From contig JASMHM010000001.1 of assembly GCA_030750765.1 (NCBI GenBank), positions 220,541-284,540 on the forward strand: 64,000 nt of DNA, read 5' to 3'. Below the pieces are notes generated by a model. It saw only the letters and a list, made by a program, of their open reading frames with translations. It ran no database searches and was not told where the DNA came from. The position numbers and the translations under genes are program-made. Every line of letters starts with the position of its first letter. Within the stretch, counting starts at the first letter, position 1. Source of the DNA: Candidatus Woesearchaeota archaeon (GTDB lineage: Archaea > Nanobdellota > Nanobdellia > Woesearchaeales > ARS49). This document shows, piece after piece, positions 51,084-58,720 of the stretch.

Positions 51084-51389
51084 ATGAAAAAGCTCGTTTG
51101 CTTGTTGTTATTCTTGGCAGCATGCCAAGCCCAGCCACCATTAGGAGGCGGGCAAGGAGACTGTATCTGCATAGCACAATACGATCCAGTGTGTGGCCAG
51201 GACGGTAACACGTACGAGAATAGCTGTCGAGCAGACTGTATTGGAGTCACGCACACCCCGAGGGCTTGTGCTAACGGAGTCTGTCCAAGAATTTTCGACC
51301 CAGTATGCGGAGAGGATGGAAAGACCTACGACAATGGCTGTGAAGCAGACGCTGCTAAGGTAAGTTATGTTCCTAACGAATGCCAGTAA
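51084..51389 (+). CDS. Lipoprotein with two Kazal-type inhibitor domains
   Basis: Residues 1-15 are a lipoprotein leader (VCLLLFLAAC, lipid Cys 14). Two Kazal-like domains follow: IAQYDPVCGQDGNTYENSC (about 31-49) and RIFDPVCGEDGKTYDNGC (about 72-89), each with the PVCG-DG-TY-N-C core. Kazal domains inhibit serine proteases. In archaea they are rare. With the secreted S16 protease and other extracellular enzymes nearby it may protect the cell surface. Confidence 0.85.
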   Translation: MKKLVCLLLFLAACQAQPPLGGGQGDCICIAQYDPVCGQDGNTYENSCRADCIGVTHTPRACANGVCPRIFDPVCGEDGKTYDNGCEADAAKVSYVPNECQ

Positions 51390-52201
51390 TCTACCTCTTC
51401 AACGTACTTCTTTGCTAGATCCGGATGGTGGATGATTATCACATTCTCATCATTCTTTCTATACCCTGCCTTGCTTGGGTTGGCACTCCCTGCGATGACC
51501 CATTCGTTATCCACCACGAAGAATTTGTGGTGAATTTTCTTTCTCACACTATTAGGTAGACGGTCTGCCTTGCTTGCCCTCCCACCCCACTCTCCAACAA
51601 CCCCATGAACGTCAAGCGTCTCTGCTTTCTCCTCTAGCATGGCTGCAATATCTTCATCGGTGATGAGGTTCAAAGCGTACAAGATGGATGAGTTCGCCTG
51701 TTGGAGAACCTCTAGGATTGCTTGCTTGCATTTGTCTTCTGGACAGAAACGAATCCTTAAGGTATGATTGTTGAGCATGATGACAGGGTTTTGGACAGGA
51801 AATCCTTTGCCGAACGTTCCTGCAACCAACTCTCCCAACTCAGCTTCGTAAAGTCTGCTGACGTAAGAGGAATGGAGTACTAGGAGATTGTTTGCTTGTT
51901 TCATGTTACTCGTTGTAGGGTTCATGCTTCCTGTAGCCACCATGTTGTTTACCACGCAAAACTTGTTGTGCATCAAGCCAGATGTTCGAGCATCCTTCGT
52001 GACTAAGATTCGTGGCTGGAACTTTGGTGAGTTATAGATTGCACAACTTCCGTTGTTGAACTTTTGGAGTTGTCCGAGGCAATCATCCCTAGGACAGAAG
52101 TATGCCTCCATGGGAAGGTTCTCTTCAACAGGGATGAAGGGTTCTGTCACGTTTCCGGTCAACGTACAACCGAACAGGCACAAAAACAGCCAGATTTTCA
52201 T
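51365..52201 (-). CDS. Secreted phospholipase-D-superfamily protein
   Basis: Residues 1-14 form a lipoprotein-type leader ending FGCTLTGNV. Two HKD motifs are present: MHNKFCVVNNMVATGSMNP (about 77-95) and IHHKFFVVDNEWVIAGSANP (about 224-243), which form one active site. It could be a nuclease, as in PLD-type secreted nucleases (Nuc), or a lipid-acting enzyme. A signal peptide puts it outside the cell. It overlaps the Kazal gene end by 25 bp. Confidence 0.85.
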   Translation of the reverse strand: MKIWLFLCLFGCTLTGNVTEPFIPVEENLPMEAYFCPRDDCLGQLQKFNNGSCAIYNSPKFQPRILVTKDARTSGLMHNKFCVVNNMVATGSMNPTTSNMKQANNLLVLHSSYVSRLYEAELGELVAGTFGKGFPVQNPVIMLNNHTLRIRFCPEDKCKQAILEVLQQANSSILYALNLITDEDIAAMLEEKAETLDVHGVVGEWGGRASKADRLPNSVRKKIHHKFFVVDNEWVIAGSANPSKAGYRKNDENVIIIHHPDLAKKYVEEVDYWHSLGT

Positions 52202-52353: not shown

Positions 52354-53163
52354 TTATCTTTGCGCCTGGCGGACTAGCTCTCTCCAGTGTGAGAATTTTT
52401 CTGGCTCGTGTTCGTTAAGATATGCCTCTATGCCCTTAAAGTTTGGACATCGTTGGACCTCAATCAGGTAGGGGGTAGAGCCCTGTGCTGCGGCCAAGTC
52501 AATGGTAAAGATACGCGAAGTCCAGACGATTTTTTCTTGGGTGACCACACCCGCGTTAACAAGAGTTTCTGCACACCTTCCTACTATATCTGTTTGGTAC
52601 GCGAGGTAGTTCACATCGGCACCCACCTCTGCTAACACTTCCTTGCAAGGCAATCTTGTGCCCACGTTCCTCACGGTGCCAAAATGAGGATTTACCCCCA
52701 CCTTTGCGTAGGAAGCGAGGTACTCAAGCCTGTCCGCAAAGACAAAAACGTTTCTTATCTCCCAGGTGTTTCCGCGATAAGAAGGGATACCCATGTCTGC
52801 GTCTACAACAATCTTATCTCGAGTGCTCAGACGGTAGATTTTCATGACCTCAGACACTCTTTCCTTGTCTGCAGGAAGGGAGGTTGCAGGGAGATCGTTC
52901 GCACCTGCCTCATCAAGCAAGAGTTGTATGTCGTTATCAGGTGTGTGAAATCTCACACCCTCTCCGTTCCTCGCAATCTTTAGCAGCCCTCTTCCACCCC
53001 CTTGCGCGGTAGGCTTGAGATACACTGCGCCATGTTGATCTAGAAAGGCCATCACACCGTTTATGGCTTTCTGCTGTTCCTGACTACCAACCTTCCAGAC
53101 AAACCAAGAGGGTCGTTTTGCTACACCACGTAGTGCGTTATAAAATTCTAGTTTATCAGGCAT
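52354..53163 (-). CDS. ATP-grasp-like ligase 1
   Basis: Lysine-bearing strand VYLKPTAQGGGRGLLKI (about 48-64), then GNTWEIRNVFVF and FTIDLA, and ending with YLIEVQRCPNFKGIEAY, the metal-binding end motif of ATP-grasp enzymes. ATG 53163 (MPDKLEFYNALRG) shares a base with the upstream stop (TAATG). Length 269 aa. It is paralogous to the gene at 53351. Substrates unknown; peptide or amino-acid ligases are the commonest relatives. Confidence 0.75.
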   Translation of the reverse strand: MPDKLEFYNALRGVAKRPSWFVWKVGSQEQQKAINGVMAFLDQHGAVYLKPTAQGGGRGLLKIARNGEGVRFHTPDNDIQLLLDEAGANDLPATSLPADKERVSEVMKIYRLSTRDKIVVDADMGIPSYRGNTWEIRNVFVFADRLEYLASYAKVGVNPHFGTVRNVGTRLPCKEVLAEVGADVNYLAYQTDIVGRCAETLVNAGVVTQEKIVWTSRIFTIDLAAAQGSTPYLIEVQRCPNFKGIEAYLNEHEPEKFSHWRELVRQAQR

Positions 53164-53354
53164 TACATATTCCTCACGTAGGCTACACCACCGATTAGGA
53201 TGAAAAGAATTGCTAGCCAGCGAGCGTGCCATCGCAAAAGAAGGTAGGTTGCTGGTGACTGAAGGAACCCCATTTCCACTCCGAAAATGCTTGGGCTACA
53301 CAGTCTTGGAACAACACTTGCTAGTGCTTCGCATATTTTTTTCTTTTTTCTCAT
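53163..53354 (-). CDS. Small membrane protein resembling the S16 protease C-terminus (63 aa)
   Basis: Starts MRKKKKICEAL in a 4-bp overlap with the upstream gene and ends with a membrane helix AILFILIGGVAYVRNM. The end closely matches VFILIGGIVWVRNI of the protease at 54220, which also stands directly before an ATP-grasp gene. A partial duplication of protease tail plus ATP-grasp is the simplest reading. Function unknown. Confidence 0.6.
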   Translation of the reverse strand: MRKKKKICEALASVVPRLCSPSIFGVEMGFLQSPATYLLLRWHARWLAILFILIGGVAYVRNM

Positions 53355-54223
53355 CGTAACTCGAACCGTGTTGGATCTCTCTCTGCAACCCACTGGAAAG
53401 CGTCCCTCGTACGGTCTAACGCTTCAGCATCAAAATGGTTGAACGCATCAACTGCCCCTTCGTAACTAGGACCGTATTGCACTTCTACGAGAGAGGGAAC
53501 ATCCTCATCGGGAGCAAGATCAATAGAAAAAAGCCTCGTGTGTATATCTCGATCGCAACGTTCTCGAAGCAACGAATACACGGGATTCGCGCAGCTCGCG
53601 GCAATGGCTAACTGCTCGACCTCGTACCATTGTGCTATGCCCCCCATGGTCGCTTCGAGAACTTTTTGTGGAAGCTCTCTGTGCCCCCCCTGTTCTACAG
53701 TGGCAAAGTGTTCATCATCCCCCACCTTGACATAACTTCCAAGCCATTGCAATCCCTCCCCCATAAAAAAGATATTGCGAATCTCCCACGCGCACCCTTC
53801 ATACAAAGGTATCCTCAATCCCGCCTGTACCGTGGCAGGGAGATACCTACAATTCTTGTAGGCATCGACTATCTTTTGAACTGCGTGCAGCGAATCCGTA
53901 AATTCTAGAAATGGCTCGCCCTCTTTCAGCTCGAGCTCTCGGCATAGATCATGCAATTCCAGAGAGGGAGCACACAGTTCGATTTGGTTTGTGTGCTTTA
54001 TCGCTTTCGCTAGCCCAAAACCTCCACAGGTTACAGCACCAATAGGTTTGAAGTAGATTGCTCCACGTTCGTTTAGCCAGGAATTCACTTTGCAGATTTG
54101 TTCAGGCGCAGTCTTCAATCCGTCATAGACCATGTCGATGCTGGGAGGTTTGTTCACGAACCCGTCTACCGCAATCTCCAGATCTTTTTTTGCGAGCCTA
54201 GGTTCGGAGGGCGAGGAAATCAT
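53351..54223 (-). CDS. ATP-grasp-like ligase 2
   Basis: Same layout as ligase 1: IYFKPIGAVTCGGFGLAKAI (about 55-74), CAWEIRNIFFMG, LFSIDLAPDEDVPSLVEVQ and YGPSYEGAVDAF at the end. Length 290 aa. Its start overlaps the protease stop by 4 bp (ATGA), so it is translated with the protease. The pair may modify the same substrate or act as a heteromer; both are guesses. Confidence 0.75.
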   Translation of the reverse strand: MISSPSEPRLAKKDLEIAVDGFVNKPPSIDMVYDGLKTAPEQICKVNSWLNERGAIYFKPIGAVTCGGFGLAKAIKHTNQIELCAPSLELHDLCRELELKEGEPFLEFTDSLHAVQKIVDAYKNCRYLPATVQAGLRIPLYEGCAWEIRNIFFMGEGLQWLGSYVKVGDDEHFATVEQGGHRELPQKVLEATMGGIAQWYEVEQLAIAASCANPVYSLLRERCDRDIHTRLFSIDLAPDEDVPSLVEVQYGPSYEGAVDAFNHFDAEALDRTRDAFQWVAERDPTRFELR

Positions 54224-55752
54224 ATATTTCTCACCCAGACTATGCCACCGATGAGGATGAACACGCTTCCTAGCCCAAAGAGAACGTATTGGTAGGTTTC
54301 GTGATCTGGGAAGGTGTCAGTGTGGGCGTTCAATGTTGCAAACTCTAGTGCGTACTCTGCAAAGAGCAGGCTGGTGGTGGGCGTGTCTTCAGAAAGGCTT
54401 TCTGCCAGTTCATAGTAGCTGTAGCCGATGATAGGGAAGACACCTTTTGTCTGTCCTCTTGCTATCTCCTGGTTCACCACGTCTAGTTTTGTGCGTAGCA
54501 CTCTAGGTAGGGCTTCCTCTCGGATGCCTATGACGCCCATGATTGCGTTTGCTTCTGCTTTTGCTTTGGATGCAGAGTAGAGACAGTCGATGTAGTTTTC
54601 ATCAGCATGGAAGGCATATGCTTGGTCTAGGGTTATGCGGACTGCGGTTGCTAGTGGTGGAGTTATGGAGACCACATAACTGTAGCGTTCTTCTGCTTCA
54701 GCTATTTTATGCTGGCACCCTTCTTTTAATCGTAGTATTTGTGGCGGACTTTCTGTACCTAGAAAGGTGGACCATAGCTGTGCGGAGTACAATCTTTCTT
54801 TTGCGTACGCTAGATTGCCCTTGCTCCCGTTGAGTATTGCTTCTTTGGTCTCCCTTAGACGTTCGTTGACCATCATGATGGTCTGGACGTCAGTTAGAGA
54901 TAGTATTTCGTGTTGTTTGAGCTCTTGCTCAAAGGTTTTGAGCTCTTTTTGGAGAGTTACAGAACTTTCTTCGGTAGGATTTTCTCGGGCGTTGTTGACT
55001 CGGCTCCTGAAGCAGGCAGAGGCTGCTGCGTAGTACTTTCCGTTGTCATACTCGTCTGTTTGCGTGGAGCAGAGCCCTTCTGCTATGCGTTTCATCCTGT
55101 CTGCGTAGGTTGCATCCAGCGTTAGTGTCGTGTGGGGTCTTGGTTCGTAGTTGGGCAGGAAGTGAGGTAGTGCCTCTTCGATGGTTGACACCTCAATGAT
55201 GGTTAGTCCGAGTTCTTTGCCGTACGGTATGGGATCGATATCGATACCTTCCACTTGCATTTTCGTACCTGGAGGGATGAGGACGGTGGTGATACCCTTC
55301 TTTTGGGCTGCTTGGATCTTCTCTAACGTTCCACCTACAGGACCAATACTTCCTCCGCTGTTGATGGTGCCAGTCATGGCTACGTGTTCTTTGACTGGCT
55401 TGCCTTGTAGGGAGGCTACCGTAAGTATGGTAGCTACTCCACCAGCACTTGGTCCGCCGATTATGCCCGGGGGTGCGCGTATGGTGAAGAAGAAGTCTGT
55501 CTTCTTGCATTCTTTCTCAAGGACACTGCATGCCACTTGTTGTGCAAATCGCATGCTGGTCTGGGTGGTGACTCTCGTAAGGGGAAAGGTGTCTAGGAAC
55601 ACTCTTCCAGTACCCCTTCTGGTTTCTAGGGAGAGTTCTGCAACAATGCCATCTCTTATCTCTCCTTGCTCAGTTAGGGCTAGCAAGGGTATGGTCTCCG
55701 CTAGTACGGGTGTGGCTAGCAATACAAGTCCCAATAGTAAGAATAGTTTCAT
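54220..55752 (-). CDS. Secreted, membrane-anchored S16 (Lon-type) protease without ATPase
   Basis: ATG 55752 (MKLFLLLGLVLL) overlaps the topA stop by 4 bp. Residues 1-20 are a signal peptide. The S16 Ser lies in GIIGGPSAGGVATIL (about 110-124) and the Lys in GPVGGTLEKIQAAQKKG (about 146-162), forming the Lon Ser/Lys dyad, but there is no AAA domain. After it come helical regions and a C-terminal helix VFILIGGIVWVRN. Such archaeal proteins have been noted as secreted S16 serine proteases (COG1750 type). Its place in one operon with two ATP-grasp genes is unusual. Confidence 0.85.
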   Translation of the reverse strand: MKLFLLLGLVLLATPVLAETIPLLALTEQGEIRDGIVAELSLETRRGTGRVFLDTFPLTRVTTQTSMRFAQQVACSVLEKECKKTDFFFTIRAPPGIIGGPSAGGVATILTVASLQGKPVKEHVAMTGTINSGGSIGPVGGTLEKIQAAQKKGITTVLIPPGTKMQVEGIDIDPIPYGKELGLTIIEVSTIEEALPHFLPNYEPRPHTTLTLDATYADRMKRIAEGLCSTQTDEYDNGKYYAAASACFRSRVNNARENPTEESSVTLQKELKTFEQELKQHEILSLTDVQTIMMVNERLRETKEAILNGSKGNLAYAKERLYSAQLWSTFLGTESPPQILRLKEGCQHKIAEAEERYSYVVSITPPLATAVRITLDQAYAFHADENYIDCLYSASKAKAEANAIMGVIGIREEALPRVLRTKLDVVNQEIARGQTKGVFPIIGYSYYELAESLSEDTPTTSLLFAEYALEFATLNAHTDTFPDHETYQYVLFGLGSVFILIGGIVWVRNI

Positions 55753-57884
55753 TCTGGTAGTTTTGCGGTGAAAAAGCATTTGGGGAATCTGTCACACGCG
55801 ATGAACGCTCCGTACATGCTTTTTCTGAGCATTTGGTTGCCCTCTTTGCATTTGGGGCATTTGCCTTTGATTTCTACGTCTGCTCCTTTGGTTGGGCAGT
55901 CGGAGTTCATGCATAGCTCTTGTGGTCTTTTTCTTTTCTTGATTACCTTCACAAAAGGATACTTGCAGGCCTCACATACTTTGTCTAGGGCTTGGATGAG
56001 TCCGTTGGCAGGTAGTTTTGCTGTTGTCTCGCAGTCTGGGTACTTGTTACAGGCTGCGAACCTTCCAAACTTTCCTTTGCGGATCATTAGTACGCCATCA
56101 CATTGTGGGCAAGGACCTAGGGTGTTCATCTCGTCGCGAGTGTTGGCAAAGGTGTGCTTGAGTTGTTCGCCTATGTCTGCTTCTTTGTCGCCAAACGCTT
56201 TGAGGAGTTCTATGATCGCGCCTTGCGCTTCATCAAGAACCTCTTCTTCTTTTTTCTTTTCTGCGCGTATGTGTTCCATCTGCTCTTCAAAGTGTCGTGT
56301 TAAATCCTCGTCCACCATAGGGGGACAGTACTTGTCGAGGATATTGCACACCTTGACACCTAGTTCTGTCGCTTCGAGATGTTCGCCTTTAACGTAGCTT
56401 CTTTGTACTAATCGGTCGACAATATCTGCTCGTGTTGCTTTGGTGCCTAGATTTCTTTTTTCTAGTTCTTTGATGATGCTGCTTGGCGTGTATCGCTTGG
56501 GTGGAGAGGTTTCCAGATCGTGCTTTTTTATTTTCTTTATTTTTACTTCATCCTTTTCTTTGAGTGAAGGCAATTCTACTTCTTCTTGCTTGACGTAGGG
56601 TGCGTAGATGGCGTGCCATCCTTGTTCTATCGTTCTTGTTCCTTTGGCGACGAATTTTTCTTCGTTGACGTTGAGTGTTAAGGTGACTGTTTCTCGTTTT
56701 GCGATCTGGCCAAAGGTTGCCAAGAATCTTTTGACGATAAGATCATACACTTTGTAGTCGCGGCCGTCTAGTGATCGGGGCATGCTTCCTGTAGGATAGA
56801 TGGCGGGATGCGCAGGATCTGTTTTCTTTCCGTTGTTAGGTGTGGGACCGGTGAGCTTTACTAAATCACCATACTTTTTCTCTAACTTTTTCTTAATGCT
56901 TGCAAACCCTATTGCAGGCGGTAGTTGCTGCGAGCTCGTTCGTGGGTAGGAGATGTATCCAGAAGTGTAGAGGTCTTGTGCTATACTCAAGGTTGCCTTA
57001 GGATTGATGCCAAAACAACGATAGCTTTCTGTTTGAAGCGTGGTAAGATCGAACGGAACAGGTGGTTGTTGGGTGTACTGTCGTTGTGCTACCTTGTCCA
57101 CGATGGCGGTTTTCGCTCCTTTCGTGTTGGCGATGATATCTTTAGCTTTGGGCTCTTCCCATATCTTGTCATCCTCATGCCAGGCAACAAATTCTTTGGT
57201 GGTTAATTCTATCTTCCAGAAGGGTGTGGGGGTGAAGTCTTGGATGCTCTTTTCTCGATCTACCAAGATTTTTAGGGCAGGCCCTTGTACTCTTCCTGCA
57301 CTGAGGATCTTGAACATGCCTGCTTTCTTTATTGCGTTGGTTAGTGCTCTAGACATGTTGATCCCGTAATAGTAATCTAAAAAGTGTCGGGTCTCTCCTG
57401 CTAGTGCGAGCCCCCAATCTAGGGTAGGGGAAACGTCATCGTAAGCTTTTCGTAGGTCCTCTGTTGTTAATGTTGAGAAGCGCATTCTTTTAGCGTCTTT
57501 TCTTTTGCACACGTACCGAACGATGTTCAGCCCTATTACCTCTCCTTCGGTATCTAGGTCTGTTCCTACGATGACGTCATCAGCATCCTTTGCTAGTTTT
57601 TTTAGCACTTTTAGGTACTTGTCTGAGAAGGCGCTTTTTTTGGATACGTCTTTGAGTTCTGTCCATTGGATGTCAAAGACAGGGAATTGCATGCCTTTTT
57701 TCTTTTTTTGCGCTAGCCCATAGAGGTGGCCGGCGCTGCATCCTACCACAATATCCTTGTCATCTTTGGTTATTTTGTAGTAGGCTATCTTGTTGATCAT
57801 TCCCTTTACGGGTTTGCCGTCTGCGAGCGCCTCTGCTATTTTTTTTGCTGCAGCTGGCTTCTCACTCACCACAAGCGTGTACAT
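55749..57884 (-). CDS. topA: DNA topoisomerase I (type IA)
   Basis: Relaxes negative supercoils. TOPRIM: VVSEKPAAAKKIAEAL and the acidic VIVGTDLDTEGEVIG; the catalytic Tyr lies in SGYISYPRTSSQQLP. Three C-terminal zinc ribbons follow: CPQCDGVLMIRKGKFGRF, CEACKYPFVK and CPKCKEGNQMLRKSMYG. Length 711 aa. No ribosome site is seen and the TATA-like TTTTAAAC (57907-57914) fits a leaderless start. It heads the operon with the S16 protease and ATP-grasp genes. Confidence 0.95.
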   Translation of the reverse strand: MYTLVVSEKPAAAKKIAEALADGKPVKGMINKIAYYKITKDDKDIVVGCSAGHLYGLAQKKKKGMQFPVFDIQWTELKDVSKKSAFSDKYLKVLKKLAKDADDVIVGTDLDTEGEVIGLNIVRYVCKRKDAKRMRFSTLTTEDLRKAYDDVSPTLDWGLALAGETRHFLDYYYGINMSRALTNAIKKAGMFKILSAGRVQGPALKILVDREKSIQDFTPTPFWKIELTTKEFVAWHEDDKIWEEPKAKDIIANTKGAKTAIVDKVAQRQYTQQPPVPFDLTTLQTESYRCFGINPKATLSIAQDLYTSGYISYPRTSSQQLPPAIGFASIKKKLEKKYGDLVKLTGPTPNNGKKTDPAHPAIYPTGSMPRSLDGRDYKVYDLIVKRFLATFGQIAKRETVTLTLNVNEEKFVAKGTRTIEQGWHAIYAPYVKQEEVELPSLKEKDEVKIKKIKKHDLETSPPKRYTPSSIIKELEKRNLGTKATRADIVDRLVQRSYVKGEHLEATELGVKVCNILDKYCPPMVDEDLTRHFEEQMEHIRAEKKKEEEVLDEAQGAIIELLKAFGDKEADIGEQLKHTFANTRDEMNTLGPCPQCDGVLMIRKGKFGRFAACNKYPDCETTAKLPANGLIQALDKVCEACKYPFVKVIKKRKRPQELCMNSDCPTKGADVEIKGKCPKCKEGNQMLRKSMYGAFIACDRFPKCFFTAKLPE

Positions 57885-57947: not shown

Positions 57948-57999
57948 AAAAGTCACACTTTAAGAGAACCTTTATATATGATGTGGAAATCACACTTTA
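57948..57999 (+). promoter_or_regulatory. Repeated TCACACTTTA around the 58001 promoter
   Basis: AAGTCACACTTTA (about 57949-57961) and AAATCACACTTTA (57987-57999) lie 38 bp apart, one before and one after the TATA box TTTATATA (57971-57978). A regulator bound to both would cover the promoter. Confidence 0.45.
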
Positions 58000-58000
58000 C

Positions 58001-58720
58001 ATGATAACAAGAACGAAGAAACGCGACCCCTATATGCTAATGGATCGACATCCAAAAGGATTAGGAAGTCGCGAAGAAGGAATAACATATGATCACAAGG
58101 CCGTAGGCCTTGCTGAAGACGCAAGAGAGTTCGCAGACGCGTTCATCTCTTGGTATAACCGAGACGGGAAGACGTTTGATGGATACATGCAAGATCATGG
58201 CTACCAGAACACAACTTTACAACGGTTTGGCTCTGCAGATTTGGGCGAACGCGCCCTTGCAGGTCTTGAAAGAGACGACGAAAACAGCAATCTATACAGC
58301 AATGGAAACATTCCCTTTGAAGAAAAAGTACAACTCATGCAATCTCAGTACAGCGTGAACGTTGAGGGTGAAGAAGTAACCCCTAGTGCGAGAGCTGTGA
58401 GAGATTACCTAGTAATGCATGAATGGCACCACAAATGGCAAAAGATTGATCCTTCAGACAGTGAGGAAAGCATTGAGCTGCAGAATGAAAGAGGCATCAT
58501 GGAAGCTGCACAATACCTGATGGAGATGAACGACGATCCTGAGGCACAGTCGCATTATGCAGAAGTGATTGGGATTGCAGAGAAGCGCGAGTACGAGATC
58601 ATCCACGGTCAGTCCGCCTACAGTCCTGATTCGATTGATGGCGTTGTCTCACCACATACTGCGTACGAAAGAGATTCTGCACCGCTGCCTGGGCCAAGCT
58701 GGGCAGCGTACAGTAACTAG
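58001..58720 (+). CDS. HExxH-motif protein (239 aa)
   Basis: ATG 58001 is chosen from the TATA box 26 bp upstream; an in-frame start lies 18 bp before. VMHEWHHKWQK (about 140) has HEWHH, a zinc-protease-type motif, followed some 30 residues later by acidic residues (NERGIMEAAQ) that could supply the third ligand. No signal peptide. No closer family is recognised. Its end overlaps the convergent ligase gene by 4 bp. Confidence 0.65.
   Translation: MITRTKKRDPYMLMDRHPKGLGSREEGITYDHKAVGLAEDAREFADAFISWYNRDGKTFDGYMQDHGYQNTTLQRFGSADLGERALAGLERDDENSNLYSNGNIPFEEKVQLMQSQYSVNVEGEEVTPSARAVRDYLVMHEWHHKWQKIDPSDSEESIELQNERGIMEAAQYLMEMNDDPEAQSHYAEVIGIAEKREYEIIHGQSAYSPDSIDGVVSPHTAYERDSAPLPGPSWAAYSN

Follow-up and report, generated by a model that had tools for sequence, protein, structure and literature searches.

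A conserved woesearchaeal locus for an exported S16 protease, and a lineage-restricted pair of ATP-grasp genes placed behind it

Tight overlaps of 1-4 bp between the genes of one operon are often a sign of related function. On the minus strand of the window analysed here, a stretch of 64,000 nucleotides (contig JASMHM010000001.1, positions 220,541-284,540 of the forward strand, assembly GCA_030750765.1), genes encoding a DNA topoisomerase, an exported protease and two ATP-grasp proteins overlap in this way, and an initial sequence-only reading saw in them a hint of a pathway for the modification and processing of peptides. The locus thus raises the question of whether ligases and protease act together, or are neighbours only. 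Its components, in window coordinates and in the order of the minus strand, are the following.

55749..57884, minus strand: topA, archaeal DNA topoisomerase I, 711 aa, first gene of the cluster (TIGR01057, 706 bits; PF01131)
54220..55779, minus strand: exported S16 (Lon-type) protease (PF05362, conservation of the catalytic dyad, AlphaFold model, superposition on Lon)
53351..54223, minus strand: ATP-grasp 2 (AG2), YheC/D-type by paralogy to AG1 and residue alignment, 290 aa, no signal peptide, overlapping the protease stop by 4 bp (PF14398 at E=0.0013, below cut-off)
53163..53354, minus strand: small ORF of 63 codons from the ATG at 53354, located between AG2 and AG1 and overlapping both (alignment to the protease 3' end, weak codon usage)
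52354..53163, minus strand: ATP-grasp 1 (AG1), YheC/D-type, 269 aa from MPDK, overlapping the small ORF stop by 1 bp (TAATG; PF14398, residue alignment)
51365..52201, minus strand: exported phospholipase-D-like (PLD) protein (PF13091)

From topA to AG1 the junctions read ATGA, ATGA, ATGA and TAATG, which correspond to overlaps of 4, 4, 4 and 1 bp, as had been claimed. The identities assigned to the genes are likewise borne out by Pfam for topA, the S16 protease and the YheC/D-type ATP-grasp proteins, AG2 scoring below the cut-off. Codon usage is gene-like in AG1 and AG2, and weakly so in the small ORF. The divergent neighbour of topA (57983-58720) encodes a 245-aa protein lacking Pfam matches, 59-64% identical in the sibling species described below and less conserved than its neighbours. 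The PLD gene is adjoined by a convergent gene (51084-51389) whose small, lipoprotein-like product contains two Kazal-type serine protease inhibitor domains (PF00050); Kazal-like genes are found near the protease also at loci L036, L039 and L049.

The protease probably starts at MKLF (position 55752, 510 aa), or alternatively at MLFH (55779, 519 aa), and ends at 54220. In the 519-aa numbering, a signal helix is followed by the S16 domain (residues ~28-207; PF05362, 60.2 bits), by an all-helical domain (223-487) and by a C-terminal TM helix (493-518). An AlphaFold model built from an alignment of 57 sequences has a pLDDT of 90.5, and the catalytic dyad Ser111/Lys154 is invariant in all 57. The S16 domain superposes on the proteolytic domain of E. 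coli Lon over 174 residues with an rmsd of 2.2 A (Z 23.4). No AAA+ ATPase domain is found among the Pfam matches of the protein, and NCBIfam Lon models match it only through their S16 end; lacking the ATPase domain, the protein is not a Lon. The predicted topology implies an extracellular, membrane-anchored peptidase. Weak matches to the BrxL and CARF-Lon families in PADLOC are due to the shared S16 domain. At the C-terminus, the proteases of most other genera (loci L075-L154) carry past the TM helix a basic cytosolic tail, often RRLRGKKR-like; those of the window species and of its sibling stop right after the helix, with VRNI or VRNL. No literature was found that names COG1750 together with archaea.

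All of the 57 genomes searched gave an S16 match, in most cases a clear orthologue and in the remainder a hit no better than that of other S16-domain proteins; the protease is nearly universal in the order, and conserved across Woesearchaeota. Its neighbours recur as well. Of 80 named loci, 64 extend far enough upstream, and in 27 of these topA is the immediate upstream neighbour, in the same orientation; a PLD-like gene follows downstream, on the same strand and within 1.6 kb, at 41 of 68. One typical woesearchaeal S16 locus (L112, JAFCCF010000013.1) is carried by a contig titled Candidatus Aminicenantes bacterium, probably mislabelled or mis-binned. The slot behind the protease is variable, and is occupied across genera by unrelated genes. 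A Ham1-family gene overlaps the protease by 4 bp at L040, related CxxC proteins are found at L037 (6766-7263), L042 (4344-4874), L043 (2750-3262) and L050 (4518-5066), and elsewhere the PLD gene follows directly. The CxxC proteins, which follow the S16 gene in several genera, are 165-182 aa long and share N-terminal CxxC pairs and the motif EKR(I/V)(R/K)K; the L042 protein, the one member scanned, has no clear Pfam match.

The distribution of the ATP-grasp genes is quite different from that of the protease. Only one genome holds AG1 and AG2. Relatives are absent from a set of 56 other genomes and, in a wider search of the order, from 352 genomes besides this one; neither gene is found at any of 80 named protease loci. 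In the phylum sample the best foreign match is fragmentary, with E=0.005 and nothing lower, and scans of genome contigs, viral contigs, phages and plasmids yielded no relative. PF14398 proteins do occur in about one-fifth of the sampled genomes of the order, on contigs other than that of the protease wherever both searches saw them. No literature linking ATP-grasp proteins with Woesearchaeota was found.

AG1 and AG2 are 30% identical over 254 aa (E=3e-28), and by this measure are paralogues. Against PF14398 (cut-off 26.8 bits) AG1 scores 28.4 bits, above the threshold, and AG2 18.5 bits, below it, so that AG2 is classed as a YheC/D-like protein only via its paralogy to AG1. Both were aligned with seven PF14398 proteins of the same order. 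In AG1 the linker lysine lies in DKLEFYNAL and the K-P strand lysine is K50; the Gly-rich loop (55-59), E135-x-R137, D222 and E235 are present as well. The core lysine, Gly loop, E-x-R, Asp and Glu are retained in both in spite of their low identity, and the usual E-x-N reads E-x-Q in both (Q237 in AG1). E-x-R is the mark of an ATP-grasp assemblage forming peptide-like bonds, and other polar residues occasionally stand in for the Asn of E-x-N (PMC4431377). Neither protein contains a signal peptide or a TM-like stretch. The AF2 model of AG1, resting on an alignment of two sequences, has a pLDDT of 34, and its ATP-grasp fold is inferred from the sequence; a ligase role is the best inference for both proteins. 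R2K (CDC123-like) Pfam models did not match either protein at E ≤ 1, RimK/GshB models gave nothing above cut-off, and no graspetide or RimK-type model is found among the Pfam and NCBIfam matches at E ≤ 1. PDB searches with AG2 and with a profile of the pair returned chance matches only, as did PHROGs for AG2 (E=0.25), and PADLOC had nothing for either ligase.

The sole trace of the ligases in a relative is found in Candidatus Woesearchaeota archaeon ARS49 (NYZT01000001.1), whose protease is 87% identical. The two genomes are syntenic from ftsZ through Kazal, PLD, S16 and topA to a DNA ligase gene, with 59-92% protein identity, the topA, S16, PLD, Kazal, ftsZ and ligase genes being 78-92% identical. 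ARS49 lacks AG1 and AG2. Its protease is directly followed by a 13-codon ORF, MPDKIAFYRAQR plus stop, and by a terminator-like hairpin. The start of this ORF matches the start of AG1 (TAATGCCTGA.AAA), and its end matches that of AG1 (CAAAGATAAAACCC). Its DKxxFYxA tract aligns with the linker motif of YheC/D-type proteins (DKWQSYSVL, DKWDTYLAL), and the ORF is therefore read as a ligase remnant. Since the N-terminal codons shared with AG1 are a native linker motif, an in-frame deletion of ~770 bp of AG1 in ARS49 is the simplest reading; the converse, that AG1 had been inserted into a mini-ORF already in place, was rejected on the same ground. Most likely AG1 was located behind the protease already in the ancestor of the genus, and was deleted in ARS49. 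The scar indicates that AG1 can be lost while the protease is kept. A chimeric assembly of the window was also considered and rejected: nothing in base composition or codon usage is out of keeping, the flanks on either side have their orthologues in ARS49, and the scar in that genome agrees.

The window species bears a footprint of another kind. Over ~160 nt, the region of the small ORF aligns to the 3' end of the protease gene with a score of 70; the scores of 500 shuffles averaged 25 (sd 4.3) and peaked at 44. The TM-like tail FILIGGVAYVRNM is identical at 10 of 17 residues to the protease tail FILIGGIVWVRNI. The two sequences are in frame only near the end, indels being found further up, and the ORF is open for 63 codons. 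This alignment identifies the small ORF as a decayed copy of the 3' end of the protease gene. The repeat of the C-terminal helix noticed at the outset is thus beyond chance, and longer than first thought. The accompanying proposal that a unit of protease tail plus ATP-grasp gene had been duplicated, the first copy decaying to a tail, holds in part: the unit is present twice, but the decayed tail is the second, downstream one, the first being the intact protease.

The tail copy itself bears on how the second ligase arose. In a three-way alignment the copy shares 15 sites with the protease of its own species and 12, clustered towards the 3' end, with that of the sibling. Before roughly column 168 the copy has more sites in common with its own protease, while its last ~20 nt and the start of AG1 are closer to ARS49. 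A simple tandem duplication within the species, in which tail and AG1 were copied and one ligase copy diverged fast, would account for the position of the copy exactly before the second ligase and for its upstream part, but not for the sibling-like end. Moreover, at 30% identity, against 78-92% for most flanking genes between the two species, the ligases appear to predate the species split by far. As the ligases have diverged while the tails resemble each other and that of the sibling, a plain recent duplication does not fit, and we regard it as unlikely. Two other origins would fit better: an allele of protease tail plus ATP-grasp imported through recombination within the 3' end of the protease gene, or an ancient duplication after which sequence was exchanged between the tails. 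Neither of the two is favoured by the site count.

What the pair may do is best judged against the pathway initially proposed. In its most explicit form, the ligases would build or crosslink a graspetide-like peptide, which the exported S16 protease would trim at the cell surface. The operon with its 1-4 bp overlaps agrees with this view, and many RiPP clusters likewise combine an ATP-grasp protein with a protease. However, no precursor peptide stood out, and the lone small ORF inside the operon is a protease remnant; neither ligase matches graspetide or RimK-type models; the protease is found everywhere without the ligases, linkage in relatives is essentially nil, and ARS49 kept the protease after losing AG1. 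Compartments differ too: the protease is exported and membrane-anchored and the ligases have no export signal, so the predicted topology separates them. The proposal is not upheld by these data, and we deem it very improbable. Slightly less credit still is given to a variant in which two successive ligases would tag an envelope protein or peptide before export, the tag being removed or matured by the surface protease; if true, such a pathway of ligases and protease would be restricted to a single woesearchaeal genus. At the opposite end, AG1 and AG2 could be inactive or decaying genes. The Asn to Gln change in the E-x-N motif of both could impair Mg binding, and the deletion in the sibling and the absence elsewhere point the same way. 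Yet both frames are intact with gene-like codon usage, and the K, E-x-R, D and E positions are held in both proteins at 30% identity; inactivity is improbable, about to the same degree as the tandem duplication.

We consider it probable, with a fair margin of doubt, that AG1 and AG2 are active yet dispensable, a cargo restricted to this lineage and translated together with the protease operon rather than part of a protease-ligase pathway. The conserved order topA - exported S16 protease - PLD would have gained, in this genus, two ATP-grasp genes at the junction between protease and PLD gene. Both products would be active soluble cytosolic ligases, holding ATP via the K-P strand lysine and the glycine-rich loop, and Mg via D222 and E235 with Q237 in place of the Asn. 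By analogy with E-x-R peptide ligases, a carboxylate would be converted to an acyl-phosphate and joined to an amine, possibly in two successive steps. Translation would probably be coupled to that of the protease operon, and the substrate would be unrelated to the outward-facing protease. The second protease tail would be a by-product of the recombination that placed the second ATP-grasp gene beside the first, kept open perhaps only as a translational link from AG2 to AG1. Against the cargo interpretation, the pair may be too lineage-restricted for co-occurrence to reveal a shared function. The locus shows how ligase genes come and go in a woesearchaeal operon, at a single position after a conserved surface protease, and the footprints are still readable: one species retains a decayed copy of the protease end, and its sibling a scar of 13 codons left by deletion. 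It also cautions that close overlaps between genes do not have to denote a shared pathway in genomes as small as these. The exported, near-universal protease would be a better target for functional work than the ligases.

Among known systems, the ATP-grasp pair is most akin to the YheC/D-like family (PF14398), with which the linker lysine of AG1, the K-P strand, the Gly-rich loop, D/E-x-R and the Mg-site Asp and Glu all align. AG1 and AG2 differ from the aligned members in being single-domain proteins of 269-290 aa, devoid of the N-terminal part and with E-x-Q for E-x-N, and are only 16% identical to PF14398 relatives of the same order in the profile alignment. The E-x-R motif is shared with the peptide-ligase assemblage including GshB, LysX, RimK and CDC123/R2K (PMC4431377). 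The protease has in common with Lon (S16) proteolytic domains, among which those of E. coli Lon and A. fulgidus LonB, the fold and the Ser/Lys dyad; in place of the AAA+ module of Lon, it features a signal peptide, a predicted extracellular helical domain and a C-terminal TM anchor.
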